Shown piece by piece: positions 24,621 to 51,783 of a stretch of DNA of 64,000 bases. Source of the stretch: Terramyces sp. JEL0728 (lineage: Eukaryota > Chytridiomycota > Chytridiomycetes > Rhizophydiales > Terramycetaceae). Below the pieces are notes generated by a model. The model ran no database searches, was not told the origin of the DNA, and saw only the letters and a list, made by a program, of their open reading frames with translations. The stretch covers positions 1 through 64,000 of the forward strand of contig JADIIU010000038.1 of the NCBI GenBank assembly GCA_027603945.1, given 5' to 3'. The translations under genes and the position numbers were made by a program. Positions within the stretch are counted from its first letter, which is position 1; each line of letters starts with the position of its first letter.

Positions 24621-24690
24621 TCCTATGTGAAGATCTTTTCTATTTCTCCACCTTTGCCCGTCTCCAAACAAAGGCATTTTTGACCTCAGA

Positions 24691-25638: not shown

Positions 25639-25657
25639 TAAATTATTTTTAATATTG

Positions 25658-26920: not shown

Positions 26921-26976
26921 TTTATTTTGTTGGAGAGAGTTGAAATGTCACATGATTGATTTTCAATCGCCAAAAT

Positions 26977-28895
26977 TTATTTAATCAGGTTGCGCACCGT
27001 ATCCATCAGCGGATTAACAGTGCTGTCAATTGAGTTCTTTACAGAGTCAAGAGACGTTTCGGCCAAGTTTTGTAAAACGCGCATGTCTAATGGAGAGTCT
27101 AGAGAGTCCTTGTTTTTCAGACAGGCAGATTCATGCTGTGCAGCGTGGTCGAGTTTACATTCTTCATTACAATACCATACAAATACCCGACCTTGAGCGC
27201 AGAATTCACATTTCAAATCAGTGTTGGCGCACTGCATCGAGCAATAGCTGCAAAGCACTTTGGCTGGCGCGTCTATGTTGAACGTGCGTCTACGTGACAA
27301 GTTCAGCTTTGGAGATGGGTTATCGTTTGGAGCTAACAATTTAAGCCGTTTCAAAACTTGAGGAGAGAAAATAACACTCTCCAGATGAGAATGTGTCTTA
27401 TTTTCTGTCTTGTTTAATCTGGCATTTTCCCATTCTGCAATAATTCTGGCATCCATCCCAATTTCTTTCAGGCATTCGACAGCATTGTCTTCCAGTCTCA
27501 ATTCAGTATCGACAATTGCAATCTAAAATAAGAAATATCTACCTGAGCAACAATTGCTTCTTGACAGTTGGCATCTTCCATTCCAGCCTCGGCACCGCTT
27601 TTAGCATCTTCTAGCATATCAAGAGATTCTTCCAACAAACTTTTTACAGATGGTGTACTTGGACTAGGCGGCAATACGGCAATTGGCGGGGAAGACGCAA
27701 GCTGGACACCGCCTAATGTAAGATATCAAATACCTGCCAGAGACAAAGCAAATTTATACAACATCCTACCAACCAAGAACTGGAGGTGGCTTTCCTTGAC
27801 CTGGATATCCAATTGCGACCCTTGAGCGAGGGTAAAATATTCCATCGCAGAACGAGAGTAATTTAATGATTTCAAAGGGTCCAGATCGCCTTTTTCATTG
27901 GTATTAACCAACTTTACACAGATATCCAACTGTTCCAACTCGCTCTTCTTGAAAATCATTTCCGGGCTGAATTCTGACTCTTCTGCTCCCGATAATAAAA
28001 GGATATGTTTGATTATTGACCCTTCTTTCCCGAACCGTTTTTCATGGCTGAATAACTCTAATGCACGGCTGTAGGCGTTCACCGCGGCACGATAGTCCTT
28101 TGCAATTTCTGCAGCTTTTGCCAACAGCATTAGTGATTCGTAGTGGTGTTCAAATTCAATAACTTCTCCAATCTGGGATTTTTCCAGAGTTGAATCCGAC
28201 ATCAATTCCGCAACAATCAAATCATACCTGGACACTAATTTGGTTCCATATTCTATTGCTCTATCGTAGTCCTGCATTTTGATTGCTAACTCGGTAATTT
28301 CTTGATACATCCTTCTCGAAATATTAGAATCGTTTTTAATAGTAGCCTTATCTCTATTAGCAGTTCTGCCAATCCGTTCATGGATCATCACTGCCAAAAT
28401 GAGCATATGGTATCCTAGTTTTTTATTTCCCACCTCAGCCTATGGTTAACAGTCAAATACAAATGCCATTCCAAGGGAGAATGCAGTCAAACTGATCGCC
28501 CGATATAAAACCGCACAAGAGTTGCTGAGACGTGAATGGGGAATCGACTCGGATAATTCGATTTCCATGTCATCCGCAGACAGTATTGGATGGTCGACGA
28601 TTAGCAGTCTGAATTGGCCGTTGGGATCCAACAAAGTCAGTGCTTCCATTAGGTATTTGAATTTTGAATCGAAATCTGCATCTAGGCCAAGCACTGTTTC
28701 AAAAATATGCAAATCTTGATCGCATTCTTCCAAATGCTCGAGGTTCACATCATATATTGATATTCCCATGTGTTTGGTTTCAATTTCAGGATATGCTGGA
28801 AGCCCCGATAGATTAATTACTGACTCCACTATTCTTTGATACGAAGAAATCAGTGCAGCTCTCTTGGCATTTTCCACAGCTTCACTCGCTACCAT
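26977..28895 (-). CDS. TPR-like protein with C-terminal MYND zinc finger, copy 1
   Basis: About 615 residues from four exons (three introns of 20-21 nt). N-terminal ~370 residues are helical pairs of TPR type (MYQEITELAIKMQDYDRAIE, YESLMLLAKAAEIAKDYRAA, AVNAYSRALELF). A Ser/Pro linker (SSPPIAVLPPSPSTPSVKS) leads to a MYND-type finger (CSYC..QC...CEFC...WYCNEEC...H...HESAC) and a short amphipathic tail. Start placed at the ATG at 28895 because both copies share it; an earlier ATG at 28916 is in frame only in copy 1. It is divergent from AK9 across 165 bp, so a flagellar role is conceivable. No named family recognised with confidence. Confidence 0.65.
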
Positions 28896-29060
28896 GCTAA
28901 GTCTAAGAAAAGCCATTCGCACCTGGGCTTCGACTGCTTGGTGCGTGGCTTGCAATACCCTTTTCGGATGTTTTAGGTGGAGAGATAATAGACAAGACAC
29001 CAACTCCTAACTGCTCTGTGTGAAGGCGATTGTGTCATTTTTCTTCTCTGCGCGTATATC

Positions 29061-32000
29061 ATGTCAAAAGTCAAAGACATTCTGGCAAGCATTCCTCCCA
29101 TTCAAGAAAAGAAACTGCCAGTAAGGGATTCCTATATTATAATTGGGAAGCCAAGTGCTGGAAAAACAACTTTGGCAAACAAATTAGCAGGATTTACGAG
29201 AGCCCAGTTGATAAATCTCGAAGAATCAATCGCAGAGTTTACAAAAAGAGGAGAGAATATTCCAGTTGGCGAGGTTTATTATACTAATAAAAGAACGAGG
29301 CTTTGATGCGCTCTGGGCAAGCTCTTGCGGGAGAAATACTATACGAAGATATGAAGCTAAAACTACAAAAAGATCCAGCACAATCCAAAGGATTTATTTT
29401 AGATGGTGTTCCAATGATACTAGAGAATGTTGATGGACCGGCCCAAATCCAATTCCTTGTATCCCTAATTCAAAACCAACAAAGACACAACTGTGTCATC
29501 ATTGATATGAGATTGTCCGACGAAGATTTGGTTAGAAGGAAAGCAAGTCAGTGGGTTGATCCGTTGACCAGCATCTCCTATCCTGGCCAGCAAGTCTTGT
29601 ATTCGCGCAAAAGGAGGCACGATGGTTTCATTGACGGAGATGATGATAGCATTCAAAACGAAGAATTATCTCTGATTTATGGAAAACAAGCCCAGCAAGT
29701 GAAAGATGAAGGTGAAGGCCAGGATGAGGAGGATAAAGATGAGGAAGAAAACGCTCCTCCACAAAATCAAACATATTTGAAAAACCGAAGCTCTTATCCT
29801 ATACTCTCGGAAAAAATCTTGGAAAGGTTGATTAAAAATCCTGAAAATGATCCTGAAAAGTTCAAGCTGGAGTTGGCAAAATACACTGCTTTCGAAGCAA
29901 AACTGGAATCTTTCAAAAAGAACAATTTCAACACTTTGCAAATCATTGAAGTGGATGCAACAATGCACCCAGATGTACTCTTTGACCAATTGAAGATTAG
30001 AATGGACGCAAATGGATTCTCTGTCTACAGCCCAATTGTGGATGCAGTTCCTCTTACAGGAGCCGAGGGTGGTTTCAAAGGTACTATAGATATAATCCCA
30101 GGCATTGCAGAGTCAGATATTTTTAAGTATTATTGCTCTCTCAATTTAAAGGATAATGAGCCTCAAAGAGAACTCAGCGTCTATGGCAAATACTGCCCAG
30201 TAGTCTATTACCACGATAAAAAACTTGTGGAAACTACTATGGAATATGCTGCAGTGTACAAGGTAATTAATTTTTCAATTAGGGAACCATATACTATCTT
30301 TCCTCGTTCGAAAATCAGACAAACTTTGTAAACTATCCAGACAAGTATATTTCTGTAAAGCTTGAACTGCCGCCCTTCAATGCTTGCATCATCGGATCTC
30401 CGTTATCAGGAAAAACTACTCTCTCAAAATCTTTATGCGAACTATACAATTTATTATACGTCAGTGTAGACGACTTTATCGAGAATATTGAAAATACAAA
30501 ATTGGATGAGCTTCCGCCGAAATTAAAGTTGCTGGCATCAAAAGTAATTTCTCAACTTAAGGTTGGTGGAGTAGTTACAGAGGATGTGTCGACTGAAATC
30601 ATCAAGAACGTAATTGGAGAGAATGACGATTTAAAAACAGTGCTGTTAACCTAACATTAGAAAAAAAAGAGTGGCTGGATTATTGATGGATATCCAGCAA
30701 CCGCAATTCAGCTTAATAGCTTGCTTGCTGCCGAAATTACGCCAAACTACATCTATTGCGTTAACTGTGATGCTGTTGAGGAAGAAATCGCAAAAAGAGC
30801 AGAAGAATTGATCGCAAGTAACATTCGCAAATGTGCAACAACGTGGAAAGAGGCAGCTGTACCATACATTGAAAAATTGTTTACTTTTTGCAACTCTGAA
30901 AGCATCGATGTTTTAAAATTATGCATCGAAAAGAATATAGCAAATTCAAGCTTTAAGTGGAAACCAGATGGAGCTGCTGTATTGACATCCTTGTTAGCCT
31001 CGCTAGATCCGTTTATTCCACAAGCAGGTAAAGGTTTATTAAAATTAGTTGTTTATACGTCAAAAACGGCTGCGGATGGAACTCCCGATTTGCTGGGGGT
31101 AACAAAAGATTACTGCCCAGTGTCTCTTAAAACTCGTGGAAAATTGCTCAAGGGGGATCCAAACATCTGTGCAAACTATTCCGGCCTTGCTTACTATTTT
31201 ATTAACGAGGACGCAAGAAACAAGTTTCTGGCTCTCCCATACTCGTATGTCAAATCTATTTCAATCCCCCCTCCTAGATTAATGTTCTTGGGAAATACCG
31301 GCTCTGGAAAGTCTTCAATAATAGCAAAACTAGGGAAATTTTGGGATATACCTGCTTTAGAGTTCAATGCTGCGGCTAAGGAAATCGCAAAATCAGTATC
31401 CACAGATTTTTACGAAGAATTGGAAGTTTACTTGGCTGAAAATGCAGGTCTTCCAATTGACTCTTTAAAAGTAATAATGCATTATCTATACAAGAAAGAA
31501 GTAAGCATTGTATAACTCTTAGCCTTATGCTTCAAAGGGATTTTTACTTGAAGGGTTTCCGGGAAACAAAGCAGATTTGGACACAATTACCAAACATTTA
31601 ATTTTCCCCGATGCATTTATTTTCTTAAAGTCGGAATCTGAAATAGCAGCAAAGCGCAAACTTCCGTTCAAAGTAAAGGAGTTGGAGCGACTAGAAGATG
31701 AGAGAATCGCGGAGCTAAAATTGATCCCACCAGAAGAACTTGACCCAGAATCAGAAAAGAACACGTCGTTACTGGTCCCAGAGGAGAAGATTATCGAAGA
31801 TCTGATGACCAAGTATTTTTTACTGATTCTAGGGTCGAGCAGGAGAACATCCAATTGACAGATTTTCAAAATTCTCTGGAATCAACCGGGATAGTCCCTG
31901 TGATCCCAGTGTCAACATCTAGATGCTTTCGACCGACAATGGCGACAATTGATGAAAAACTGTCACGTTATTTGAGATATGTAAATTGGAGTTTATTCTA

Positions 32001-33897
32001 GCGAAGTTCAATTTTGGAAAGTGTCAATAAGATGGATACAAAGGCTGCTGGATTGCTACTTTCACTTGGAATTAAAAAGTACAGCAAAATTGGGTATTTT
32101 TGTCCTAATATTAGCAAAATATGTCCAGTTGCACTCAAAATAACCAAAAAACCGTCGTTAAATAATTTTGGATCCATTCCAGTAGTGTACAGGGATGAAA
32201 TATATTTCCTAAAGAACAAACAAAATGAAAAGGTAGGCTTTATTTTATTCAGGAATTTACAAGAAATACCAATCAATATTTGCCATGCTCTGCCCCCGAG
32301 CCGATACTATCGCCAACTTGTTGTATTCTCGGTAATCCAAAAGCTGGCAAGACAACTTTGGCCAAGGCACTGGAAAGTGCTCTAGATTGTGTACATTTGA
32401 CTGTTTCTTCTATTCTACAAACAATTTTGGATGCGCAAGAAGTAACCAGCATACATGATAAAATCAAAGCAGGTCTAGAAAGCGGGAAAGAACTGCCAGA
32501 TCAAGTTGTGGTGGAAGCGGTTATACTGGCAACTAATAGAATAGTAGCTGCCGGCAAAGGGTAAATAGTTTTAAACAAAGATGGATTCTTGATGGATATC
32601 CAACAACTATTTCCCAGGCAATGGCATTAGAAAAGGCTGGATTCCAACCGCACATCTTTTTGAACTTGACAATTGACGAAAAAGAAATACTGAAGAGAGC
32701 GAATGACGATCACAAACGTCAGCTGAGGTAATGGTTTGCTAATTTGAAGAACTGGGACCGACCAACCACAGTTAAATGTCCCTGAAATCAATCAGCTTCG
32801 TTCAGAACACTATAAAAATCACATAATGTCTATCAAAAACTTGTACAACTTGAAGTTTTCAAACTGGACAGATATTTCAGGTGAAAAGTCTAAATGGGCA
32901 CTGAAGGAAGAAATAATAATGTCCTCAGAGAAAGCACTAGCAAGGAGACAGACATATTTGGATTTAGTTCTGAGAGGTCAAGCAGCAGCTGTGCACGGGG
33001 TTGGGCTATCGAATTCCTATCTGTCAAGTCACAGGGGTAAATTTGGTGTTTACTGTCCTTACAGTTTTACCGCAAATAACGAGTTGAAGATTGCAGAAAA
33101 CACCTATGAATTCATGGCAGAGTACAGGGGGCAATTCCATTCCATGTACAGTAAAGAAGCGCTGCATCTATTCTTAAAAGAGCCAGAACTGTACTTGGCA
33201 ACAGCGCTTCCGCAGGCACTACCAAAGAGACGAAGCAAAGAAGAACTCAAAACCTTGTTCCCAAAGCAAATTCAACTAAAAGGATATTGCCCAGTAACAT
33301 TTAAAGAAGGGCCGCCAGGGTAATCGGATTGTAATTTAGCTTCAGCAGTATAATTCCAGGAAGCCAAGACCATGTAGTTGAATACGATGATAACCTCTAC
33401 AACATGGCCAACGTCGAGCAATTGGAAAAGTTTATGAGGTAATGCTTGGCTTACGATAGAACCCCATGGGAGTATGCTGATTTGAAATTGCCAATGAAGC
33501 TGCCTCCTCCAGATGCGCCATTGCCAATTTCTGGGCTGCCAGTGGTTGGATATCTAGAGCAGACCATTGCAACTTCTCTTTCCAATGCTCTTATATCAGT
33601 TGGCAATTTCAAACCAAAATATCCGTATAAAGATGTGCATTCTTCTGCAAACGAATTCATAGCCCTGTATTTAAAATGTAAATCAGCTGTAATTTAGCGA
33701 ACAATCCAAATTCGAAAGAGTGGATAAAGGAGAGCTATGGCAAGAAACTGAATATTTTCAAAGAAAAGTGCCAGCTAATGGAAAGACTGAGCAAAAAGGT
33801 CAAGGCTATAAATGAACAAAGCCGCTATGTAAGTGAAGAGTTAGCAAAGGAAGTCGCAGAGTTCTTGAAGCTGAAACCAGTGGATTTTGAGCAATAA
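29061..33897 (+). CDS. AK9: Adenylate kinase 9, multi-domain, copy 1
   Basis: Very long nucleotide kinase, ~1,500 residues, read through twelve introns of 20-22 nt. Four P-loop domains are visible: GKPSAGKTTL, GSPLSGKTTL, GNTGSGKSSI and GNPKAGKTTL, alternating with family linkers such as KGFILDGVP, GWIIDGYPAT, KGFLLEGFPGN, WILDGYPTT and the AK9-type repeats GKYCPVVYYHDKKLV, TKDYCPVSLKTRGKLL, GKFGVYCPYSF and GYCPVTFKEGPPG. This is the AK9 (AKD1) layout of flagellated eukaryotes, where it regenerates ADP/ATP and other nucleotides. An acidic stretch (EGEGQDEEDKDEEENA) interrupts domain 1. No broken frame in either copy. Confidence 0.9.
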
Positions 33898-34178
33898 ACT
33901 CTATTTTCTGTAGTATGCATTCAGCGTAATAGACTGCGATATACTAGTGAAATTTACCTGTTAGATGTGTTGGCACGCGAATGTCCAATGTCGGACGCAA
34001 TTCCCTATTAACAAAACTTTTATTTCGGGAGTTTAAAGACAGTAGATTCACAGCACCATAGCGTTATTTGCGAAATTCATTTTCATAAACACAAATGGTA
34101 ATAAAATTTGGCATGGAGTAAACAATGAAATTTGATAAACAGCCATTGTCAAATAGCTTTTCTTCAAAGTGGATTAAA
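33898..34178. other. Intergenic, AK9 to cyclin Y (copy 1)
   Basis: 281 bp with no conserved frame. An in-frame ATG at 34125 precedes the chosen cyclin start by 18 codons and is treated as 5' UTR. The same spacer recurs at 43831-44111. Confidence 0.5.
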
Positions 34179-34499
34179 ATGGGAAATATAGTATCAGTTA
34201 ATAGCAGTAGTTTACTAGACGACGGTGTGATGAGCAAGTCAAATTCGAACGTGGATTTTGGAAAATTGAAAGACACGCACATTAAAACGGATGCAAATCA
34301 CAGCAATATACTGGATTCCAGTTTGTATGTAGAACCGTTGAGCGCAACGCAGAAATCACCCACAAATATATTGGCAGCAGAATTAGAGGCCCTCCAGCCA
34401 AAGTTAACGCCAGGTAAGGGCAAAGTTGCTCCAAAACCAGTGTCGAAAGAAAAAGAGATTCTTAACGATCAAGCAGCTCCAAAACTGGTGTGGAAAGAA
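34179..34499 (+). pseudogene. Truncated cyclin Y fragment at duplication junction
   Basis: The first 107 codons of cyclin Y, from MGNIVSVNSS to KLVWKE, identical in frame to the intact gene at 44112. The block junction at 34499/34500 then fuses it to reverse-oriented sequence from the unknown gene of 24620, adding GLIAATAYFLSLFLWFWHPM and a stop at 34560-34562. The cyclin box is entirely missing, so it cannot bind a CDK. It may still be transcribed, because its promoter is intact, and would give a myristoylated N-terminal peptide with a hydrophobic tail. Confidence 0.85.
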
Positions 34500-34552
34500 G
34501 GCTTGATAGCTGCTACTGCTTACTTTCTTTCCCTTTTTCTTTGGTTTTGGCA
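34500..34552 (-). pseudogene. 5' fragment of the unknown gene of 23589-24620
   Basis: The ATG and first ~17 codons (MPKPKKKGKKVSSSYQA) with the shared divergent promoter, cut off at the junction. The remainder of the gene is absent in copy 2, so the reading frame would run into antisense cyclin Y sequence. A non-functional by-product of the duplication. Confidence 0.85.
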
Positions 34553-34622
34553 TCCTATGTGAAGATCTTTTCTATTTCTCCACCTTTGCCCGTCTCCAAA
34601 CAAAGGCATTTTTGACCTCAGA

Positions 34623-35570
34623 ATGAACACCCAGCAAAATACAAATACCCCCGACACAAGTGGAGAGAAAAGTAGCCAGAGAACTTCTTGTGATTGGTCT
34701 TCTTGCACCGCAGGTACTATTGGCTGCTGACTCTAGTTTTTGAAAGCAAGTACGAATTGCTGCCACATATTACCAAATCGCATATGGTTGCCAATCATCT
34801 TAGACCAGTAAACATTCCAAACGAAAAAGAGAATACCTCGGCTTTGCCTTGCAAGTGGAACAGTTGTGGAAATAGTGTTTATGGATCAATTGACGAATTA
34901 GTCCAGCATGTATCAAAAAACCATTTACACTTCACTCAAGAGGATTTGCAATTACCAAATTTATGCTTCTGGATTAACTGCGGAAACAAATTCAAGAGCT
35001 TTGAGGATTTGACAGTACTACTGAGTTAACACAGACACACCTTGCCTCCACCCATGTTGGAGAAGGAAAAGGCCAGTATGTATGCCAGTGGTATAAATGT
35101 GATAGAAATGGCAAACCGTTTGCGCACCGCCAAAAGATAATGAGGTACTTTTTCAGCTAACAAGACATCTGCAAACGCATACTGGAGATAAACCATACCA
35201 ATGCACTACATGCAACCAAAAATTCTCAGAAATGGTAGTAATGGAGCAGCATAAGCGTAGACACACTAACGAGAAACCATTTAAATGTTCAGAAGCTATG
35301 TGCAAAAAGGAATTTGCAATTGCAGGGGCACTAGCAACTCACACAAGGACTCATACCGGAGAAAAGCCATTTCCCTGTGATTCAGAAGGGTGCGAGAAGC
35401 GTTTTGCAGATTCCAGTAATTTATCAAAGCACAAAAGAGTGCACACAAAAGTAAAGCCATTCAAATGCCCAGTCGATCCTTGTGAAAAGACTTTTGCTAG
35501 GACTGACCAAGTTACTCGCCATGCCAAAATTCATCGAGGTGTTGGCGGAAAACAATCTGAAGAACTGTAA
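34623..35570 (+). CDS. ZAP1-like C2H2 zinc-finger transcription factor, copy 2
   Basis: Same exon layout and finger order as the copy at 24691. Differences I can see: Asn to Ser before the third CxWxxC finger's helix (KFKSFED), and Glu to Lys in the finger beginning CSEAMC (CKKEF instead of CEKEF). Zinc ligands are untouched in both copies, so both should fold. With its partner it would double the dosage of this regulator unless the shared promoter was altered by the junction 120 bp upstream. Confidence 0.82.
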
Positions 35571-35589
35571 TAAATTATTTTTAATATTG

Positions 35590-36852
35590 TCATTTAACCC
35601 TGGTAAAAATGAATACCATTACTGCAGATGTTGTCAAGCAGGCGCAAAAGAAGATTAGCTGGAAATCAAACCCGTAAGCTGTGTAGACCCAAGAACCAGC
35701 AATTGGACCTAAAAGCATCCCAGTAGAAGATGCTATGTTGTATAACGAGTAAACCGTTCCAAAAGAGTTATCTCCCAACTCCTTGGCAATGTCTGCCATC
35801 TCTGGAACACCTGGAACGAGCGATATACCAGCACCTATTCCAAACAATACCAAAGCACAGATCAATAATTCGATGGAATCTGTTAATCCAACAAGCGGAC
35901 AAGCAACAGCAAAAATTACCAATCCCAAAGTGGTCACTGCCTTTCTACCGTATTTGTCAGACAGAGAACCTGATAATGTGCAAGCAATCATTTTTGGAAT
36001 TGAAATTGCAGTCCATAATAACCCAACTGAAGTGGTGCTACTATCAAAGAGCTCTTACTTTAACTTGAAGGAGGTACCCAAGTACAATGGCAATGTAGGC
36101 TCTATTCCAGTTAATACACCTTCAGCGACCACGATTGCAAGCAGGGTTACAATCATTTGGACATTGGATATCAACTTTAGCATTCCCACAGATTTCTTGG
36201 AGTTGGCAGGCTGATCTTCCAACAGTCTGGTATGTTCGCCCTCTTCCGATATGAACTGATAATCAAATGAAAGCGAGGGATAAGGTAAAAATATCCGAAA
36301 ACAAGTGTCCAGCAAGCACACACCAGCACATACGTGAAACGGAGCTACAGTTCCAAATTTATCATATAACATTCCTCCCAAAGGCGGTCCAATCAAGTTC
36401 CCCAAAGTGTTTGCTGTCATCACATTGCCCATGATTTTCCCCAGGTTTGTTGGAAACGACTCTGCCAATATGGAGAATCCAATCATCCATCCCACACCCC
36501 CAGCAATTCCCTGTCCCATCCGTGCTAAAAATAAAGTCCTAATATTATGCGTAATTTACTCTAAAGAATTACCATAGATGATAAAGTATATCGAGAGCAA
36601 TAATAACAACGACGAACTACACATTGGAATTTTTCTATTTTGGTACTTGTCCGAATAATAAGCGACTATTGGCGTAACTACTATTCCTACAGAGTAGGTG
36701 GATAACAGCACTCCTAATATTTCCGAGGATTTTACAATTTGTGGGAATGTTGGAATAAATATTCCATAAACTAGCATATCGCAGAAAATTGCAAATCCCA
36801 CAAGAAATGCGAATATTGAAGCTGACTGTCGAACATTTTTTATAATTCCCAT
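35590..36852 (-). CDS. MFS transporter, DHA1/vesicular amine transporter-like, copy 2
   Basis: Twin of the transporter at 25658. The 18-nt intron is at 36041-36058 with one base changed inside it, still GT...TGATAG. Protein changes are conservative: Ala to Val in the N-terminal NARQS segment and in the loop GTAAPF. All signature loops are intact, so both genes look functional. Confidence 0.88.
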
Positions 36853-36908
36853 TTTATTTTGTTGGAGAGAGTTGAAATGTCACATGATTGATTTTCAATC
36901 GCCAAAAT

Positions 36909-38827
36909 TTATTTAATCAGGTTGCGCACCGTATCCATCAACGGATTAACAGTGCTGTCAATTGAGTTCTTTACAGAGTCAAGAGACGTTTCGGCCAAGT
37001 TTTGTAAAACGCGCATGTCTAATGGAGAGTCTAGAGAGTCCTTGTTTTTCAGACAGGCAGATTCATGCTGTGCAGCGTGGTCGAGTTTACATTCTTCATT
37101 ACAATACCATACAAATACTCGACCTTGAGCGCAGAATTCACATTTCAAATCAGTGTTGGCGCACTGCATTGAGCAATAGCTGCAAAGCACTTTAGCTGGC
37201 GCGTCTATGTTGAACGTGCGTCTACGTGACAAGTTCAGCTTTGGAGATGGGTTATCATTTGGAGCTAATAATTTAAGCCGTTTCAAAACTTGAGGAGAGA
37301 AAATAACACTCTCCAGATGAGAATGTGTCTTATTTTCTGTCTTGTTTAATCTAGCATTTTCCCATTCTGCAATAATTCTGGCATCCATCCCAATTTCTTT
37401 CAGGCATTCGACAGCATTGTCTTCCAGTCTCAATTCAGTATCGACAATTGCAATCTAAAATAAGAAATATCTACCTGAGCAACAATTGCTTCTTGACAGT
37501 TGGCATCTTCCATTCCAGCCTCGGCACCGCTTTTAGCATCTTCTAGCATATCAAGAGATTCTTCCAACAAACTTTTTACAGATGGTGTACTTGGACTAGG
37601 CGGCAATACGGCAATTGGCGGGGAAGACGCAAGCTGGACACCGCCTAATGTAAGATATCAAATACCTGCCAAAGACAAAGCAAATTTATACAACATTCTA
37701 CCAACCAAGAACTGGAGGTGGCTTTCCTTGACTTGGATATCCAATTGCGACCCTTGAGCGAGGGTAAAATATTCCATCGCAGAACGAGAGTAATTTAATG
37801 ATTTCAAAGGGTCCAGATCGCCTTTTTCATTAGTAGTAACCAACTTTACACAGATATCCAACTGTTCCAACTCACTCTTCTTGAAAATCATTTCCGGGCT
37901 GAATTCTGACTCTTCTGCTCCCGATAATAAAAGGATATGCTTGATTATTGACCCTTCTTTCCCGAACCGTTTTTCATGGCTGAATAACTCTAATGCACGG
38001 CTGTAGGCGTTCACCGCGGCACGATAGTCCTTTGCAATTTCTGCAGCTTTTGCTAACAGCATTAGAGATTCGTAGTGGTGTTCAAATTCAATAACTTCTC
38101 CAATCTGGGATTTTTCCAGAGTTGAATCCGACATCAATTCCGCAACAATCAAATCATACCTGGACACTAATTTGGTTCCATATTCTATTGCTCTATCGTA
38201 GTCCTGCATTTTGATTGCTAACTCGGTGATTTCTTGATACATCCTTCTCGAAATATTAGAATCGTTTTTAATAGTAGCCTTATCTCTATTAGCAGTTCTG
38301 CCAATCCGTTCATGGATCATCACTGCCAAAATGAGCATATGATATCCTAGTTTTTTATTTCCCACCTCAGCCTATGGTTAACAGTCAAATACAAATGCCA
38401 TTCCAAGGGAGAATGCAGTCAAACTGATCACCCGATATAAAACCGCACAAGAGTTGCTGAGACGTGAATGGGGAATCGACTCGGATAATTCGATTTCCAT
38501 GTCATCCGCAGACAGTATTGGATGGTCGACGATTAGCAGTCTGAATTGGCCGTTGGGATCCAACAAAGTCAGTGCTTCCATTAGGTATTTGAATTTTGAA
38601 TCGAAATCTGCATCTAGGCCAAGCACTGTTTCAAAAATATGCAAATCTTGATCGCATTCTTCCAAATGCTCGAGGTTCACATCATATATTGATATTCCCA
38701 TGTGTTTGGTTTCAATTTCAGGATATGCTGGAAGCCCCGATAGATTAATTACTGATTCCACTATTCTTTGATACGAAGAAATCAATGCAGCTCTCTTGGC
38801 ACTTTCCACAGCTTCACTTGCTACCAT
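36909..38827 (-). CDS. TPR-like protein with C-terminal MYND zinc finger, copy 2
   Basis: Twin of the gene at 26977. Upstream of the shared ATG (38827) one extra A in an A-run shifts the frame, so the alternative ATG possible in copy 1 is unusable here; substitutions are also denser upstream than within the gene. Together these favour the shared ATG as the real start. Coding changes include Asn to Thr (KLVTTNEK) and Asn to Ser (VESAK). MYND ligands unchanged. Confidence 0.65.
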
Positions 38828-38993
38828 GCTAAGTCTAAGAAAAAGCCATTCGCACTTGGGCTTTGGCTGCTTGGTGCGTGGCTTGCAATACCCTTTTCGG
38901 ATGTTTTAGGTGGAGAGATAATAGACAAGGCACCAACTCCTAACTGCTCTATGTGAAGGCGATTGTGTCATTTTTCTTCTCTGCGCGTATATC

Positions 38994-41900
38994 ATGTCAA
39001 AAGTCAAAGACATTCTGGCAAGCATTCCTCCCATTCAAGAAAAGAAACTGCCAGTAAGGGATTCTTATATTATAATTGGGAAGCCAAGTGCTGGAAAAAC
39101 AACTTTGGCAAACAAATTAGCAGGATTTACGAGAGCCCAGTTGATAAATCTCGAAGAATCAATCGCAGAGTTTACAAAAAGAGGAGAGAATATTCCAGTT
39201 GGCGAGGTTTATTATACTAATAAAAGAACGAGGCTTTGATGCGCTCTGGGCAAGCTCTTGCGGGAGAAATACTATACGAAGATATGAAGCTAAAACTACA
39301 AAAAGATCCAGCACAATCCAAAGGATTTATTTTAGATGGTGTTCCAATGATACTAGAGAATATTGATGGACCGGCCCAAATCCAATTCCTTGTATCCCTA
39401 ATTCAAAACCAACAAAGACACAACTGTGTCATCATTGATATGAGATTGTCCGATGAAGATTTGGTTAGGAGGAAAGCAAGTCAATGGGTTGATCCGTTGA
39501 CCAGCATCTCCTATCCTGGCCAGCAAGTCTTGTATTCGCGCAAAAGGAGGCACGATGGTTTCATTGACGGAGATGATGATAGCATTCAAAACGAAGAATT
39601 ATCTCTGATTTATGGAAAACAAACCCAGCAAGTAAAAGATGAAGGTGAAGGCCAGGATGAGGAGGATAAAGATGAGGAAGAAAACGCTCCTCCACAAAAT
39701 CAAACATATTTGAAAAACCGAAGCTCTTATCCTATACTCTCGGAAAAAATCTTGGAAAGGTTGATTAAAAATCCTGAAAATGATCCTGAAAAGTTCAAGC
39801 TAGAGTTGGCAAAATACACTGCTTTCGAAGCAAAACTGGAATCTTTCAAAAAGAACAATTTCAACACTTTGCAAATCATTGAAGTGGATGCAACAATGCA
39901 CCCAGATGTACTCTTTGACCAATTGAAGATTAGAATGGACGCAAATGGATTCTCTGTCTACAGCCCAATTGTGGATGCAGTTCCTCTTACAGGAGCCGAG
40001 GGTGGTTTCAAAGGTACTATAGATATAATTCCAGGCATTGCAGAGTCAGATATTTTTAAATATTATTGCTCTCTCAATTTAAAGGATAATGAGCCTCAGA
40101 GAGAACTCAGCGTCTATGGCAAATACTGCCCAGTAGTCTATTACCACGATAAAAAACTTGTGGAAACTACTATGGAATATGCTGCAGTGTACAAAGTAAT
40201 TAATTTTTCAATTAGGGAACCATATACTATTTTTCCTCGTTCGAAAATCAGACAAACTTTGTAAACTATCCAGACAAGTATATTTCTGTAAAACTTGAAC
40301 TGCCACCCTTCAATGCTTGCATCATCGGATCTCCGTTATCAGGAAAAACCACCCTCTCAAAATCTTTATGCGAACTATACAATTTATTATACGTCAGTGT
40401 AGACGACTTTATCGAGAATATTGAAAATACAAAATTGGATGAGCTTCCGCCGAAATTAAAGTTGCTGGCATCAAAAGTAATTTCTCAACTTAAGGTTGGT
40501 GGAGTAGTTACAGAGGATGTGTCGACTGAAATCATCAAGAACGTAATTGGAGAGAATGACGATTTAAAAACAGTGCTGTTAACCTAACATTAGAAAAAAA
40601 AGAGTGGCTGGATTATTGATGGATATCCAGCAACCGCAATTCAGCTTAATAACTTGCTTGCTGCCGAAATTACGCCAAACTACATCTATTGCGTTAACTG
40701 TGATACTGTTGAGGAAGAAATTGCAAAAAGAGCAGAAGAATTGATCGCAAGTAACATTCGCAAATGTGCAACAACGTGGAAAGAGGCAGCTGTACCATAC
40801 ATTGAAAAATTATTTACTTCTTGCAACTCTGAAAGCATTGATGTTTTAAAATTATGCATCGAAAAGAATATAGCAAATTCAAGCTTTAAGTGGAAACCAG
40901 ATGGAGCTGCTGTATTGACATCCTTGTTAGCCTCGCTAGATCCGTTTATTCCACAAGCAGGTAAAGGTTTATTAAAATTAGTTGTTTATACGTCAAAAAC
41001 GGCTGTGGATGGAACTCCCGATTTGCTGGGGGTAACAAAAGATTACTGCCCAGTGTCTCTTAAAACTCGTGGAAAATTGCTCAAAGGGGATCCAAACATT
41101 TGTGCAAACTATTCCGGCCTTGCTTACTATTTTATTAACGAGGATGCAAGAAACAAGTTTCTGGCTCTCCCATACTCGTATGTCAAATCTATTTCAATCC
41201 CTCCTCCTAGATTAATGTTCCTGGGAAATACCGGCTCTGGAAAGTCTTCAATAATAGCAAAACTAGGGAAATTTTGGGATATACCTGCTTTAGAGTTCAA
41301 TGCTGCGGCTAAGGAAATCGCAAAATCAGTATCCACAGATTTTTACGAAGAATTGGAAGTTTACTTGACTGAAAATGCAGGTCTTCCAATTGACTCTTTA
41401 AAAGTAATAATGCATTATCTATACAAGAAAGAAGTAAGCATTGTATAACTCTTAGCCTTATGCTTCAAAGGGATTTTTACTTGAAGGGTTTCCAGGAAAC
41501 AAAGCAGATTTGGACACAATTACCAAACATTTAATTTTCCCCGATGCATTTGTTTTCTTAAAGTCGGAATCTGAAATAGCAGCAAAGCGCAAACTTCCGT
41601 TCAAAGTAAAGGAGTTGGAGCGACTAGAAGATGAGAGAATCGCGGAGCTAAAATTGATCCCACCAGAAGAACTTGACCCAGAATCAGAAAAGAACACGTC
41701 GTTACTGGTCCCAGAGGAGAAGATTATCGAAGATCTGATGACCAAGTATTTTTTACTGATTCTAGGGTCGAGCAGGAGAACATCCAATTGACAGATTTTC
41801 AAAATTCTCTGGAATCAACCGGGATAGTCCCTGTGATCCCAGTGTCAACATCTAGATGCTTTCGACCGACAATGGCGACAATTGATGAAAAACTGTCACG

Positions 41901-43830
41901 TTATTTGAGATATGTAAATTGGAGTTTATTCTAGCGAAGTTCAATTTTGGAAAGTGTCAATAAGATGGATACAAAGGCCGCTGGATTGCTACTTTCACTT
42001 GGAATTAAAAAGTATAGCAAAATTGGGTATTTTTGTCCTAATATTAGCAAAATATGTCCAGTTGCACTCAAAATGACCAAAAAACCGTCGTTAAATAATT
42101 TTGGATCCATTCCAGTAGTGTACAGAGATGAAATATATTTCCTAAAGAACAAACAAAATGAAAAGGTAGGCTTCATTTTATTCAGGAATTTACAAGAAAT
42201 ACCAATCAATATTTGCCATGTTCTGCCCCCGAGCCGATACTATCGCCAACTTGTTGTATTCTCGGTAATCCAAAAGCTGGCAAGACAACTTTGGCCAAGG
42301 CACTGGAAAGTGCTCTTGATTGCGTACATTTAACTGTTTCTTCTGTTCTACAAACAATTTTGGATGCGCAAGAAGTAACCAGCATACATGATAAAATCAA
42401 AGCAGGTCTAGAAAGCGGGAAAGAACTGCCAGATCAAGTTGTAGTGGAAGCGGTTATACTGGCAACTAATAGAATAGTAGCTGCCGGCAAAGGGTAAATA
42501 TTTTTAAACAAAGATGGATTCTTGATGGATATCCAACAACTATTTCTCAGGCAATGGCATTAGAAAAGGCTGGATTCCAACCGCACATCTTTTTGAACTT
42601 GACAATTGACGAAAAAGAAATACTGAAGAGAGCGAATGACGATCACAAACGTCAGCTGAGGTAATGGTTTGTTAATTTGAAGAACTGGGACTGACCAACC
42701 ACAGTTAAATGTCCCTGAAATCAATCAGCTTCGTTCAGAACACTATAAAAATCACATAATGTCTATCAAAAACTTGTACAACTTGAAGTTTTCAAACTGG
42801 ACAGATATTTCAGGTGAAAAGTCTAAATGGGCACTGAAGGAAGAAATAATAATGTCCTCAGAGAAAGCACTAGCAAGGAGACAGACATATTTGGATTTAG
42901 TTCTGAGAGGTCAAGCTGCAGCTGTGCACGGGGTTGGGCTATCGAATTCCTATCTGTCAAGTCACAGGGGTAAATTTGGTGTTTACTGTCCCTACAGTTT
43001 TACCGCAAATAACGAGTTGAAGATTGCAGAAAACACCTATGAATTCATGGCAGAGTACAGGGGGCAATTCCATTCCATGTACAGTAAAGAAGCGCTGCAT
43101 CTATTCTTAAAAGAGCCAGAATTGTACTTGGCAACAGCGCTTCCCCAGGCATTACCAAAGAGACGAAGCAAAGAAGAACTCAAAACCTTGTTCCCAAAGC
43201 AAATTCAACTAAAAGGATATTGCCCAGTAACATTTAAAGAAGGGCCGCCAGGGTAATCGAATTGTAATTTAGCTTCAGCAGTATAATTCCAGGAAGCCAA
43301 GACCATGTAGTTGAATACGATGATAACCTCTACAACATGGCCAACGTCGAGCAATTGGAAAAGTTTATGAGGTAATGCTTGGCTTATGATAGAAACCCAT
43401 GGGAGTATGCTGATTTGAAATTGCCAATGAAGCAGCCTCCTCCAGATGCGCCATTGCCAATTTCTGGGCTGCCAGTAGTTGGATATCTAGAGCAGACCAT
43501 TGCAACTTCTCTTTCCAATGCTCTTATATCAGTTGGAAATTTCAAACCAAAATATCCGTATAAAGATGTGCATTCTTCTGCAAACGAATTCATAGCCCTG
43601 TATTTAAAATGTAAATCGGCTGTAATTTAGCGAACAATCCAAATTCGAAAGAGTGGATAAAGGAGAGCTATGGCAAGAAACTGAATATTTTCAAAGAAAA
43701 GTGCCAGCTAATGGAAAGACTGAGCAAAAAGGTCAAAGCTATAAATGAACAAAGCCGCTATGTAAGTGAAGAGTTAGCAAAGGAAGTCGCAGAGTTCTTG
43801 AAGCTGAAACCAGTGAATTTTGAGCAATAA
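38994..43830 (+). CDS. AK9: Adenylate kinase 9, multi-domain, copy 2
   Basis: Twin of the gene at 29061 with identical intron positions and all four P-loops intact. Amino-acid changes are scattered and mostly mild (V/I, A/T, A/V, F/S in KLFTSC, I/M, L/Q in MKQPPPD, T/N in DRNPWEY region). Intron interiors also differ by single bases while GT, branch-like and AG positions are kept, consistent with selection on splicing in both copies. Confidence 0.9.
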
Positions 43831-44111
43831 ACTCTATTTTCTGTAGTATGCATTCAGCGTAATAGACAGCGATATACTAGTGAAATTTACCTGTTAGATG
43901 TGTTGGCACGCGAATGTCCAATGTCGGACGCAATTCCTTATCAACAAAACTTTTATTTCGGGAGTTTAAGGACAGTAGATTCACAGCACTATAGCGTTAT
44001 TTGCGAAATTCATTTTCATAAACACAAATGGTAATAAAATTTGGCATGGAGTAAACAATGAAATTTGATAAACAACCATTGTCAAATAGCTTTTCTTCAA
44101 AGTGGATTAAA

Positions 44112-45786
44112 ATGGGAAATATAGTATCAGTTAATAGCAGTAGTTTACTAGACGACGGTGTGATGAGCAAGTCAAATTCGAACGTGGATTTTGGAAAATT
44201 GAAAGACACGCACATTAAAACGGATGCAAATCACAGCAATATACTGGATTCCAGTTTGTATGTAGAACCGTTGAGCGCAACGCAGAAATCACCCACAAAT
44301 ATATTGGCAGCAGAATTAGAGGCCCTCCAGCCAAAGTTAACGCCAGGTAAGGGCAAAGTTGCTCCAAAACCAGTGTCGAAAGAAAAAGAGATTCTTAACG
44401 ATCAAGCAGCTCCAAAACTGGTGTGGAAAGAAAAAGAGATTCTTAACGATCAGAATAAACCCCAACATGGATCACATAGTCACATTCATCACAGAGAAAA
44501 CAGAGCCCTAATACAGAGCAACAGCAAATTGAATATGTCGGATGACGATGTTGCAACCTCCCAGGAATTACCAACAAAAGACCGGCCTATGAATGCGGCA
44601 ATGGCAGTGCTTAACAAGAGGAAAGGAGGCAATTTTACTTCGGACGGATCATTGTCCAGTAGACATCCAAGATCACCTGCAAGTTCGCAAAACAGTCCAA
44701 AAAGTATACATGACTTTTATAATCTGGATGACACAGCGACCGCAAAAGGGATAAAAAAATCAACAGTGGAACTTACTAACGAGCAAATACCGAGATTTCC
44801 GTCTACAACGATTTACCCTGAAGATATGAATAAATCCATACCATATGATAAAAAAGGAAATCATGAAGAACTAAAAAAAAGAGTGGATACTGTAAAAAAA
44901 TATAGGTTAAAGAAATTCAATTCCACATCCACATTATTTGTTGATTCAGTAATAATCAATGCAGATTTAACTGAATCAATCAAATGGTACCAATTTTTAA
45001 TAGTAGCGTTGCCTCTTACTTGCACTTGAAAATATATCATAATGCCAACTTGCCAAAGTCTCAATGGAAGACTGTTGATCTATTGTCAGAGAAAATCCAT
45101 CCGTTATCAGTTAGTATTCATTTATAGTAGACTCACATACAATTTTACAAAACTATACCTAGTTCAAAAGACATTTTTCGATATTTAGAGTGTATTTTTC
45201 AATCGCCGGATATTGCTGTGGAAACAATATATATCACGCTGGTAATATCAAAGTTAATCGCAAGTTGTATATTAACAGAATGCTTCACCACTCAAAGTTT
45301 ACGGTGTTGCCGATTAATTGGGCAAGAATTGCGCTTAGCGGGGCTCTCATCGCATCAAAGGTGTGGGATGACCATGCAGTGTGGAATATTGATTTTTGCC
45401 AGATATTCCCCGAAGTACCAGTAGTAGATTTGTAATTGCCACTAATGTAGGAACGAGTTGGAAGCTTTGGCTCTTGCGCAAATAAATTTCAATGTTAGCG
45501 TACGAGCGTCTGAATATGCAAAGCTATACTACAGTCTCCGAGATCTTCCCCCAATAGGCACTCGGCCCTGGGCTTTACGTCCATTAAGGCAAAATGAAGC
45601 ATACAAGATTACAGTACTTTGATTTAATACTAGTTTAAACAACAAAAGCCAGAGGAGTACGAAAATGCCGAAATCAATCAGGAGGAGGAAGATGAAATTG
45701 TCTCCAGAGGCTTTGTGATTCGGATGCCTGAAAGAACTCAAAGCGCGCAAGCGATAGACCTAAAGAACAGGCAGGCATATGTCTAA
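44112..45786 (+). CDS. Cyclin Y-like, myristoylated cyclin
   Basis: Membrane-tethered cyclin that in animals activates CDK14/16. The start at 44112 gives MGNIVSVNSS, matching the N-myristoylation MGNxxS start of animal cyclin Y; an earlier in-frame ATG at 44058 would bury it. A ~240-residue Ser/Lys-rich region follows, then the conserved STLFVDSVIINADLTESIKC, VASYLHLKIYH, FRYLECIF, INWARIALSGALIASKVWDD, HAVWNIDFCQIFPE, NELEALALAQINFNVSVRAS and EYAKLYYSLRDL. Five introns of 19-23 nt are needed in the second half. The complete cyclin box and downstream tail distinguish it from the fragment at 34179. A 16-codon repeat (KEKEILNDQ) marks the duplication breakpoint. Confidence 0.88.
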
Positions 45787-48531: not shown

Positions 48532-50102
48532 TTACTTTATCGTAATAGCATTTGATTCCACCTGCCCCCATTCCCCGAAACCGATTACACTGATGATGAT
48601 TGGAGTTTGAAATTTATTCAGACCAAGAAAGTACAGAACACTGCCTGAAAGTTTGCTATCTACTACCTTGGTCGCTATAATCGAGTTTTGTACTTTGATT
48701 GAGTAGTCAGTTGCTCCAGCTGCACCTCTCCATTTCAACAACGCGCTCTTTTCAACAATCTCTGGTTCAAACAGCACTGGCGGGTCAGGAACTGTTAGAT
48801 TTCGCGCAACTCCGAGTTTTCTATTAATTTCCACCATACTTTTCATGATTAGCTTTTCATCTTTTGAAAATCCATCGCTTTCTTGAAACCCGGGGTAATG
48901 ATACGCACTGTATGCGCTATTTTCTTTATGGATTCCTACGATTAAACAAAAGTACTAAATCCACCTTCTACAGAATGGAATCTTAGACTCCAGATTAGCA
49001 TTCCTGAACACGCACTTTGTAAAAACGCATCTTGGAAATCTCTAATCGCTTCAAATTGCGTTAATCCAAATTCTCCAACAATAAAGGCTTTCTTGTAAGG
49101 CTTTATAGTATCAAGGTCATTGTTCAATCTAAACCTGTAAGTATCGTCTAAAGAGTCGCTTTGAATACTTGGAAAGTCTACACTTGCCAACCAGAAACTG
49201 GATATTACAACAATCAAGTAAACAGCAATCATTGAATACCTGAATTTCCTTTTTCTGGCCCGCAGATAAAACATGCTCGTCCTATTGAGTATTGTAAAGT
49301 AAATCCCAATCGCCGAATATGCTGCCGTGAAGAGAAATAGCAATTTGTGGTTAAAGCCATGATTCATCAAGTATAGATTCCTATGGCTGGTGCCTCCCAT
49401 ATAATAGTGGTTGGTGAAAATATCTATATATTCACTCTGCAGCACATCTTCGCTCCACAACCCATTACTTGCATCCATCACTAAATGGTTAGCATCCAAT
49501 TGTTTTATATACTTTGCGATATCTAGTGTCCACTCTGGGTTAGGCTCGATTTCATTCCCAGTCTCCCAACACAAAATTGCAGGGTCGTCCTTGTACAATA
49601 CACCGCTAAACGTATTCCTTCTATTCAAAATTTGGGATATCAGCTGTTTGAATCCAGTCCTTATAATACGATTGCTGAAAAACTCGCGCTTGTCCAGTCC
49701 ATACAAGTTTGCAAATGCTTTTAGTCCGCCAAACCATTCCCAGTCATCAATGAAAGGTATGATAACCTTGATATTATAAATATTTGCTAGATGCAATGCA
49801 TAATCAAAATCCTGCATTAGGTCTTTGTTCAATTGCCATTTGCAGTCTAAACTTTGAAATCCAGATATTATTTTGATATGCTTGCGTTCGGATGGATCTT
49901 GCGGTATTGAAAAAACATAGGTGCGTACTACTTGACCTCCTAATTGTGCGATAGATGATAGTTGGTCCTGTTGTTCAAAAGATGAAATTCGTTGCCATGG
50001 ATCTTCCAAAATATGTAAATTTGGCGTATTGAAAGATGCGAATCGAAATATGGTATTATTCAAGACTAACTGTCCATTTCTATGCTGCACAAAACCAGAC
50101 AT
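48532..50102 (-). CDS. GH5 endo-beta-mannanase-like enzyme with internal membrane segments
   Basis: Family GH5 TIM-barrel hydrolase, ~510 residues with one 20-nt intron. Start FVQHRNGQLVLNNTIFRFAS, LGGQVVRTYVFS, IPFIDDWEWFGG, acid/base ILCWETGNEIEPNPEW (Glu184), FTNHYYMGG, nucleophile FIVGEFGLT (Glu344), WSLRFHS, and HKENSAYSAYHYPGF as in fungal mannanases. Between the two catalytic Glu, at about 253-271 and 289-306, are two strongly hydrophobic segments (LLFLFTAAYSAIGIYFTI and MIAVYLIVVISSFWLASV) joined by a basic turn, an insertion in the loop after strand 6. A C-terminal fibronectin-III-like domain ends the protein. No N-terminal signal, so topology would depend on the insert. Next to beta-mannosidase, suggesting a mannoside-degrading pair. 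Confidence 0.82.
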
Positions 50103-50131
50103 TTTTGTTTGTCAACAAAAATCAAAATTTA

Positions 50132-51783
50132 TTAAATGGCAGATATGGAAATTTCACCGTACGCTTGTGACTGGGTAACGGCTACCAAATCTTTGGTTTT
50201 CAATACCAACAATTCAAAGAATACTTTTGCTGCAATACTCTTTGATTCCTAGATTAATATGAATTACATTTTCTGTGATTTGAGAGAATGTTGCTTCCCC
50301 TTGGAACTTGTCTCGAATGATATTGAGAGTTTTCTGCGTGTTTGACGCAAGGTTTTCAGTTTCTTCGACCGACTCTTCTTCGTCAAATTCAAAAATGGAT
50401 ACGTTTTGTGGTGCCATTACATCTAGCAATGATTCATCCTCTGGTTTGTGTCTCTTTGGTGATGGTTCTTCTGGGTGGATTACTGAAATATCCCCAAAGT
50501 TCATATCCATACCAGCATCAAAACTAATTTCCGGTTCTTGCTCGAAAACCGGATCTTCAATATGCAAGCTAGCCATTGTTTCGTTGGCTTGATAAGTGAC
50601 GGGCTGTCTCTTTGGCTCGAGGAATTTCAAATCTAGCTTTGCGAATCTGCTGTATTGCGCTACCAGCATTTCTTCCAAAGATAAATCCAACAAGTTCTCC
50701 AGCCCAAATTGATTTCTGAATGTTGAAAGAGTTGGATAATTGATAACGAGTTTGAAGAGAGGATTTGGCTTGTTGTGTACAAACTGACTAAAGTCGCCAT
50801 CTTTCATGAGTTTGAAATCTGCTTCATCCATGAAAATTGCACTATCAATTGCAATCCTTTTTCTCTTTGGAGTTTTTCTCCTTTCCATTGAAATCTCCAG
50901 TTCGAGGTCTAAATTAGAATAATCGCACTTTCTGGTTCTAATTCCAAATTTTCAGGTTCTACAACAGGCTCCATCGCAACATCTTTGTCAAGGTCAAACC
51001 CCAAGTCGATATTTACACTAAATTAATATGGGCTACTCTCTACAGATTAGTTTAGGTTACTCAAATCTACGATCAGTAAAAATTACCCCCTATCATTAGT
51101 ACATATTACAATGCTTGACCCACTTCTAAATTACCTGGCTCAGGTCTATCATTAATTGCAGTTACTCTTTTCTACATTAATAATGAATACTCTAAATCAA
51201 ATCCAAAGTCTAGCGCACCTTGATCTCCAAAATCTACGGGTATTTCTTCTCTAGGAACTTCCATTGAAATATCCGGATCTAACAATGATTTCTGAAAGCT
51301 TTGTTGCGGAACAAATTCTCTGGTTAAATCAGCATCTCTTCCAACTTCCATTGATTCCTGGGTAAATGAGAGAAATGTATTGTCCTCCACTGGTTTCAAA
51401 GTATTTAGATCGAGCACAGGATTATACATGATATCAAATTCATTAATTGTATCTGCAAGTGTAATTTGGTTATTTGAAACGACAGACTGTACAACATTTA
51501 AATCAACTACCGATGGACGAAACGCCATCTTAATTTTAACTAGTGCTTCATTACAATCTTCAAACAAGTACTTTGCTTTGCGGGAGAATATTTTGCATAC
51601 ACCTAGTAACAACTGTCCCGATAGTCGAAGTGCCATATGATCATAATCTTCAATTGCTGAAATTGAATTTGGAATATTTGTAGCGAGAAACTGTGATTTT
51701 GACAGCTTTCTCTCCCAGTGCGCTGCAAGCCATACTTTGGCCAATGGGCCCTTTTTGTTTAGTATCGTTTCTGAATAAAACAT
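50132..51783 (-). CDS. RAD21: Cohesin alpha-kleisin Rad21/Scc1
   Basis: Closes the cohesin ring between SMC1 and SMC3. N-terminal domain: MFYSETILNKKGPLAKVWLA, AHWERKLSKSQ, DHMALRLSGQLLLGVCKIFSR, KAKYLFEDCNEAL. C-terminal winged helix after a 19-nt intron: ESKSIAAKVFFELLVLKTKD, LVAVTQSQAYGEISISAI. The middle is acidic (GALDFGFDLE..., NIDLGFDLDKD). To connect the halves I need a chain of introns, including the microexon series at 51018-51190 and another 20-nt intron near 50909-50928. The start is ATG 51783. Which kleisin (mitotic Rad21 or meiotic Rec8) is settled toward Rad21 by the N-terminus. ~500 residues, a little short for the family. Confidence 0.85.
51018..51190 (-). other. Microexon array inside RAD21
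   Basis: Seven consecutive introns, each beginning GTA and ending TAG or AAG, of 19, 20, 21, 20, 20, 21 and 19 nt. They enclose exons (on the minus strand) at 51171-51166 (6 nt), 51145-51135 (11), 51113-51110 (4), 51089-51087 (3), 51066-51061 (6) and 51039-51037 (3). Spliced, they give KEPEPALGFED in frame between FDLE and VNIDLGFDLD, an acidic run like its surroundings. The microexons total 33 nt, so skipping all of them as one 173-nt intron also keeps frame; that reading would be the longest intron in the window by far. Confidence 0.6.

Follow-up and report, generated by a model that had tools for sequence, protein, structure and literature searches.

A row of six ultrashort introns and their microexons predicted in the RAD21 gene of the chytrid Terramyces sp. 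JEL0728

The window analysed here, a stretch of 64,000 nucleotides from the genome of the soil chytrid Terramyces sp. JEL0728 (Chytridiomycota, Rhizophydiales, Terramycetaceae), carries on its minus strand a gene for the cohesin kleisin RAD21/SCC1 (Table 1). The product has both the N-terminal and the C-terminal Rad21/Rec8 domain in a Pfam search (Rad21_Rec8_N, PF04825, 8.9e-37; Rad21_Rec8, PF04824, 1.6e-14), which identifies it as this kleisin and bears out the gene name given in an original prediction made on this DNA. A homology search scored 8000 candidates, 2103 of which matched with E <= 0.001. Among the best 120 of these 2103 matches, the closest relatives were a GenBank protein of Terramyces sp. 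JEL0728 itself (P0001), which was the first match, and a protein of Boothiomyces sp. JEL0838 (P0002). The RAD21 stop is separated by about 29 nt from the next ATG on the same strand (window 50102-50132), and the open reading frame at 48942-50102 gave no family in the Pfam search. An Rfam search of the window at gathering scores gave no match. The window also holds a head-to-tail duplication (24568-34499 and 34500-44432), about 9.93 kb long and 98.7% identical, which includes several intron-bearing gene models.

Table 1. The RAD21 gene and the parts of its intron array (positions in the window).
Feature	Position	Strand	Details
RAD21/SCC1 gene (cohesin kleisin)	50132..51783	-	ATG at 51783; eight introns removed, giving 497 aa; from translation, Pfam, relatives and gene model
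Array intron 1	51172..51190	-	19 nt, phase 2, GTA-N7-TTAAT-N1-TAG
Microexon AAAAGA	51166..51171	-	6 nt; K and part of each adjoining E; KE kept in P0002
Array intron 2	51146..51165	-	20 nt, phase 2, motif match
36-nt exon	51110..51145	-	contains the third "intron" of the original prediction (51134-51114); P0002 ungapped here
Array intron 3	51090..51109	-	20 nt, phase 2, motif match
Microexon GGG	51087..51089	-	3 nt
Array intron 4	51067..51086	-	20 nt, phase 2, motif match
Microexon ATTTGA	51061..51066	-	6 nt
Array intron 5	51040..51060	-	21 nt, phase 2, motif match
Microexon AGA	51037..51039	-	3 nt
Array intron 6	51018..51036	-	19 nt, phase 2, motif match
RAD21 intron 7	50909..50928	-	20 nt, GTG donor, outside the array; also removed in P0001
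RAD21 intron 8	50249..50267	-	19 nt, outside the array; also removed in P0001

Six of the eight introns of the gene lie between 51190 and 51018, with gaps of 6, 36, 3, 6 and 3 nt between them. All six fit GTA-N7-YTRAY-N1..3-TAG, the genome's own intron rule, and the reading frame joined across them is open and acidic, as had been predicted. The original prediction had counted seven intron units with gaps of 6, 11, 4, 3, 6 and 3 nt, and hence six microexons. Six of these units carry the full motif and the gaps of 6, 3, 6 and 3 nt stand, but the seventh unit (51134-51114, GTAATTTAGAAGTGGGTCAAG) lacks YTRAY and ends in AAG. The gaps of 11 and 4 nt are replaced by one 36-nt exon, which leaves four microexons of at most 6 nt. 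We rejected the seventh unit as an intron: it is 21 nt long, in frame and free of stops, but has no YTRAY, and Boothiomyces keeps the corresponding residues ungapped. Frame-shifting alternative products had also been suggested. Exon skipping within the array, however, would always preserve the frame, since each of the five internal exons has a length divisible by 3 and the six introns share phase 2. The frame shifts only if a 19- or 20-nt array intron is retained, and the 21-nt intron, if retained, meets a stop. Outside the array, the conserved C terminus of Rad21 is obtained when intron 8 is removed. Where intron 7 lies, the Boothiomyces protein has seven extra residues in the alignment (SKLLSDL); a 21-nt intron may have been kept unspliced in the Boothiomyces model.

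The array introns belong to a class that is common in this genome. We counted GTA-Nd-YTRAY-N1..2-TAG in a 264-kb sample, made up of 200 kb of contig C1 and the window. At d = 7, 8 and 9, the pattern occurred 77, 49 and 15 times (5, 4 and 3 in the reversed control). For d = 13-152 summed, 523 occurrences were observed vs 561 in the control. This is no excess, and long introns with the YTRAY motif are therefore undetected in the 264 kb. The spacing test uses no gene model and is independent of the gene finder, which gave 136 models with 369 introns and 263 internal exons on the same sample. The finder's introns are 18-24 nt long, a range that is partly built in because the finder permits short introns only; 327 of the 369 have a GTA donor, and their phases are distributed 156, 109 and 104. 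The genome has a canonical U2 snRNA gene with the usual branch-pairing stretch (GTGTAGTATCTGTTCTT). Judged by sequence, the array introns have GT-AG ends, a branch motif, a length of about 20 nt and an open frame after removal, features that suggest ultrashort U2-type introns.

Chance hardly produces such an array. While the 173-nt array contains six motif matches, 5000 dinucleotide shuffles of it gave no match in 4880 cases, one in 119 and two in a single case. With a somewhat wider motif, both strands of the 264-kb sample contain 244 matches (36 in the reversed control). Only four clusters with gaps of at most 60 nt occur among them, namely three pairs (gaps of 49, 21 and 47 nt) and RAD21, the only cluster with more than two matches. 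Likewise, 4 of the 263 internal exons given by the gene finder are 15 nt or shorter, and all four are in RAD21. These 264-kb counts include some genes twice because of the 9.9-kb tandem duplication in the window. The idea that the RAD21 array is unique holds for the 264-kb sample, but is false genome-wide, as rows were found in other genes.

To ask if the microexons reach the mRNA, we compared the possible RAD21 products with the Boothiomyces orthologue, which is a predicted protein as well. With full inclusion, the array region would encode KEPEPGNLEVGQALGFED, and RAD21 is predicted to hold KEPEPGNLEVGQAL, unlike the product of a single long intron. The array stretch of the six-intron product (KEPEPGNLEVGQALGFEDVNID) aligns ungapped to the orthologue (KEPEAENMEVEQQMPQIDINMD), with 11 of 22 residues identical, and none of 100000 permutations reaches the observed fit. 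Full inclusion scored best of seven valid models against the orthologue (2046). Next came the models that skip GGG and ATTTGA (2041) or the last three microexons (2032). Lower scores were obtained when the first 6-nt exon was skipped (2024), with the original seven-intron model (2013), when the first plus the last three were skipped (2010) and with one 173-nt intron (1981). Full inclusion appears to fit Boothiomyces best, although its lead is small over some of the skipping products. Against the distant relative P0007, full inclusion was again the best of the seven (636; others 613-634). Against the distant P0003 it was not the best, with 622 vs 631 for the original model and 630 and 627 for two skipping models. 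The residues GFED, coded around GGG, ATTTGA and AGA, match the Boothiomyces protein at 1 of 4 positions. The comparison appears to argue strongly for the first 6-nt exon and the 36-nt exon, and weakly for the trio of 3, 6 and 3 nt.

The GenBank protein P0001 (484 aa) is obtained letter for letter from the window DNA when one 158-nt intron (51175-51018) and introns 7 and 8 are removed, and it scores 1980 against the Boothiomyces orthologue. Where that orthologue has its KEPE segment, P0001 reads YSLLI. The annotation behind P0001 made no 3-nt exons; if Boothiomyces was annotated by like methods, as we assume, the segment is probably one exon there. In that case the row would have been either gained in Terramyces or lost in Boothiomyces.

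We also modelled seven other loci with short gaps outside of poly-proline stretches (L031, L035, L039, L041, L042, L043 and L045). The microexon was kept in six of these and lost in L045. Homologues support inclusion in L031 and L043, which were picked for a site in a conserved domain, while some of the other four may be chance. L031 encodes a phosphoacetylglucosamine mutase with a 3-nt exon, ATG, near residue 289. With this exon, the protein aligns ungapped between DGDADR and the next DGD to the three PDB sequences compared (4bju, 5o9x and 2dka, the first two nearly identical to each other); without it, the protein is one residue short. The exon leaves the Pfam score of the nearest domain unchanged at 142.3 bits, because the ATG site lies outside every Pfam domain. 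L043 encodes an MFS transporter with a 6-nt exon, TTGGTG, near residue 202, and its PF07690 score is 144.0 bits with the exon and 131.5 bits without it. Comparison with the orthologue for RAD21, and with homologues for two other genes, is in this way consistent with inclusion of the microexons.

To see how widespread such rows are, we searched the 15.0-Mb genome for motif pairs with gaps of 0-30 nt. Two pattern searches found 113 and 81 pairs, vs 79 and 72 in the reversed controls, so the excess over all gaps is modest. It differs between gap lengths. Among the 181 pairs listed, with 171 distinct strings, 30 distinct strings have a gap of 0, while the control expectation is about 5 per gap length (151 control pairs over 31 lengths, the controls not made distinct). 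Gaps of 3, 6 and 12 nt account for 13, 9 and 9 of the distinct strings, and gaps of 1, 2, 4, 5, 7 and 8 nt for 3, 6, 1, 2, 2 and 2. The count of 9 at gap 12 proves nothing, since gaps of 14, 21, 22 and 27 nt give 7, 9, 8 and 11. We dropped the idea of a general excess of gaps in multiples of 3, as gap 6 is weak and the excess at gap 3 comes from rows with ACC exons and from RAD21 (7 and 2 of the 13).

With a wider spacing, the zero gap, where TAG abuts GTA, was found at 89 junctions (53 + 36; reversed control 11 + 10 = 21). A gap of 3 nt was found 35 times (21 + 14; control 8 + 9 = 17) and a gap of 1 nt 13 times (9 + 4; control 3 + 12 = 15). The 35 three-nt gaps consist of 19 ACC exons in poly-proline rows, 2 in RAD21 and 14 others; as these 14 do not exceed the control of 17, the numbers do not support isolated 3-nt exons. 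The zero-gap junctions, 89 in all, group into 76 clusters. Three or more introns stand together in 11 of these, and a few are repeated sequence on other contigs.

Rows of tiny exons are also found in poly-proline genes. A diaphanous-type formin (L033, C106:22500-28000), with Drf_GBD, Drf_FH3 and part of FH2 by Pfam, has 39 predicted introns in its model, with 22 exons of 3 nt (21 ACC and one CCC) and two of 6 nt. These lie mostly in its poly-proline stretch, where most cut proline codons after the second base. Two further poly-proline genes (L034, C17:66000-70000; L044, C106:1-3500) alternate introns of about 20 nt with exons of 3 and 6 nt; the protein on C17 matched no family in the Pfam search. 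Zero-spaced rows were found at L037, L038, L040 and L046, with at most five introns in a row. They include a CDP-alcohol phosphatidyltransferase gene with five introns, whose Pfam match runs across the join, a CBS-domain gene with four and an EMC2-like gene with three. L046, presumably a proteasome alpha subunit gene as named from its sequence, has four zero-spaced introns, three of which are identical 20-mers. Intron units are near-identical at C48 and between neighbours in the formin, and the matched strings at C128 are identical. Alongside the identical 20-mers of L046, these units suggest that introns were copied in tandem, either together with 3 nt of exon or with none.

We consider it likely that the RAD21 stretch is made up of six individual spliceosomal introns of U2 type, each 19-21 nt long and removed singly, and that the exons of 6, 36, 3, 6 and 3 nt stay in the mRNA. 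If the array were instead removed in a single step, as one long intron of 158 nt (as in GenBank) or 173 nt, the microexons would never appear in the mRNA. P0001 equals the 158-nt model exactly, and the frame survives loss of the whole row, the internal exons being multiples of 3. It resembles the single-intron outcome that the original prediction named as its refutation, but that model is an annotation and not a cDNA. Removal in one step also loses a segment present in Boothiomyces, KEPE..NxEVxQ (1980 and 1981 vs 2046), leaves the perfect internal motifs without a reason and requires a long intron in a genome where long introns of the YTRAY motif went undetected in 264 kb, while tiny exons elsewhere (3 nt in L031, 6 nt in L043) are backed by homologues. 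We think the one-intron GenBank model of RAD21 is most likely wrong, and regard a single long intron as improbable. It is unlikely, too, that only introns 1 and 2 are spliced singly, while all or part of 51109-51018 (92 nt, including GGG, ATTTGA and AGA) leaves as one piece, be it in every transcript or in some. The scores of 2032 and 2041 are close to the 2046 of full inclusion and the residues from the last three microexons are poorly conserved, but the Boothiomyces protein has identical length through the stretch and every intron has its own complete signals.

The seven introns of the original prediction, with exons of 6, 11, 4, 3, 6 and 3 nt, seem very improbable. Their additional 21-nt unit does start with GTA and end with AG, its loss keeps the frame, and the model has the top score against the distant P0003 (631 vs 622). 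Against this, the unit has an AAG end and no YTRAY, and its residues GNLEVGQ align ungapped to ENMEVEQ in Boothiomyces, where the model scores 2013 vs 2046. One could also imagine a regulated switch, in which the cell varies the entry of microexons into RAD21 and thereby alters the acidic linker, as the internal exons are all symmetric (phase 2) and every combination is in frame. The same symmetry is equally expected from frame-neutral growth, as in the zero-spaced and ACC rows, and as nothing here points to regulation we give such a switch little credence. The unusual array and the 9.9-kb tandem duplication in the same window could raise the suspicion of a misassembly, or of a dead gene whose sequence has decayed. 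Either is scarcely credible in view of an intact RAD21 of 497 aa with both Pfam domains, of P0001 being readable from the same DNA and of similar rows in other genes.

In this genome, a complete intron is a rigid module of about 20 nt, made of GTA, 7-9 nt, YTRAY, 1-3 nt and TAG. If the array is indeed spliced as six introns, each module would most likely be recognised alone by intron definition, because an exon of 3 nt or zero length is unable to serve exon definition; the unit-by-unit recognition suggested in the original prediction would be a plain consequence of the 3-nt exons. The modules would presumably leave successively, since neighbours only 3-6 nt apart could not all be occupied simultaneously. 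Judged by the orthologue, the exons of 6, 36, 3, 6 and 3 nt would contribute to the acidic linker that connects the N-terminal with the C-terminal domain. This linker is poorly conserved, and split or added codons would do little harm there. We propose that rows exist because adjoining modules do no harm if the coding sequence left between them preserves the frame. Rows would grow through copied or added modules, and steps that break the frame would be lost. Such selection would account for the excess of gap 0, for that of gap 3 in ACC rows and for the shared phase 2 in RAD21.

For RAD21 itself, tandem copying as the origin of the row is not demonstrated: the variable 7-mers of its six introns resemble one another no more than do those of six introns drawn at random from 99 others (p 0.20). 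This 7-mer comparison is also the observation that bears on a possible kinship to introner elements, introns of shared sequence copied into many genes. The row may derive from old tandem copying or from separate gains at neighbouring phase-2 sites. More generally, we see about an even chance that the ~20-nt intron module is self-sufficient and spreads locally by head-to-tail multiplication (with gaps of 0, 3 or 6 nt and up to 39 introns in one gene model), and that the spliceosome can remove its units with no exon between them. If this is true, RAD21 is one of the rare rows in non-repetitive coding sequence, and tandem row growth is an active way of gaining introns that can be followed in sequence.

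Rows with almost no exon suggest a splicing machinery that needs almost none. From what is established about splicing, exons as short as 3 nt or, as it appears, 0 nt would leave no space for exon definition, exon junction complexes or simultaneous spliceosomes. Because the tiny exons leave no such room, a natural system would be available in which to test the order of splicing and its geometry, and the RAD21 array would be a hard case for models of splice-site recognition. Tandem rows, some of them still identical, would also show directly how local copying adds introns, which has long been debated. Our results suggest that public protein models of such fungi are wrong at these rows, RAD21 most likely being one of them.

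In the open-access literature searched, we recognised no account of rows of ~20-nt introns with 0-6-nt exons, and found nothing on point about short introns in chytrids. Several known systems resemble these rows in part. Ultrashort spliceosomal introns, with lengths near 20 nt, are known in Paramecium, nucleomorphs and Stentor. The introns described here are like them in their length of about 20 nt and their U2-type signals, and unlike them in standing in rows with exons of 0-6 nt. Ultrashort introns are also treated for Paramecium bursaria (PMC12862383). Microexons and single-nucleotide exons have been described in Arabidopsis (PMC4674806) and in Fusarium CYP621A (PMC12940212). As in Terramyces, where this is predicted, exons of a few nucleotides are spliced into the mRNA; in those accounts they appear to be isolated exons, whereas here a stretch of 173 nt contains four of 3-6 nt, and one formin model has 22 of 3 nt. 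The micro-exon genes of Schistosoma (PMC10526429) have exons of 3-81 bp in series, introns of up to 5 kbp and secreted products. Short serial exons are shared with the RAD21 row, but the introns here are 19-21 nt rather than long and the gene is a cohesin gene.

Two splicing schemes also invite comparison. In [D1,2] stwintrons (PMC12403724, PMC8469720), the donor of one intron is interrupted by another intron nested inside it. Tightly packed fungal introns, and the stepwise removal predicted here, are common to both, but the introns of the array are complete, separate and un-nested, with gaps of 6, 36, 3, 6 and 3 nt. In recursive splicing, ratchet points or zero-length exons subdivide large introns (PMC2773006). 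The zero-spaced rows found here (89 junctions, control 21) likewise have an acceptor abutting a donor (TAG/GTA), although with units of about 20 nt, so that the form is alike and the setting different; RAD21 has gaps of 3-36 nt and no zero-length junction. Intron gain by tandem duplication (PMC4974935) involves a copy that straddles an intron-exon boundary. New introns through local DNA copying would be common to that route and to the rows, but here whole introns with a 0- or 3-nt exon seem to have been copied head to tail (C30, C48, C128 and the formin). The RAD21 row would work like ordinary ultrashort introns plus microexons and is, by the features tested, neither a stwintron nor a Schistosoma-type micro-exon gene.
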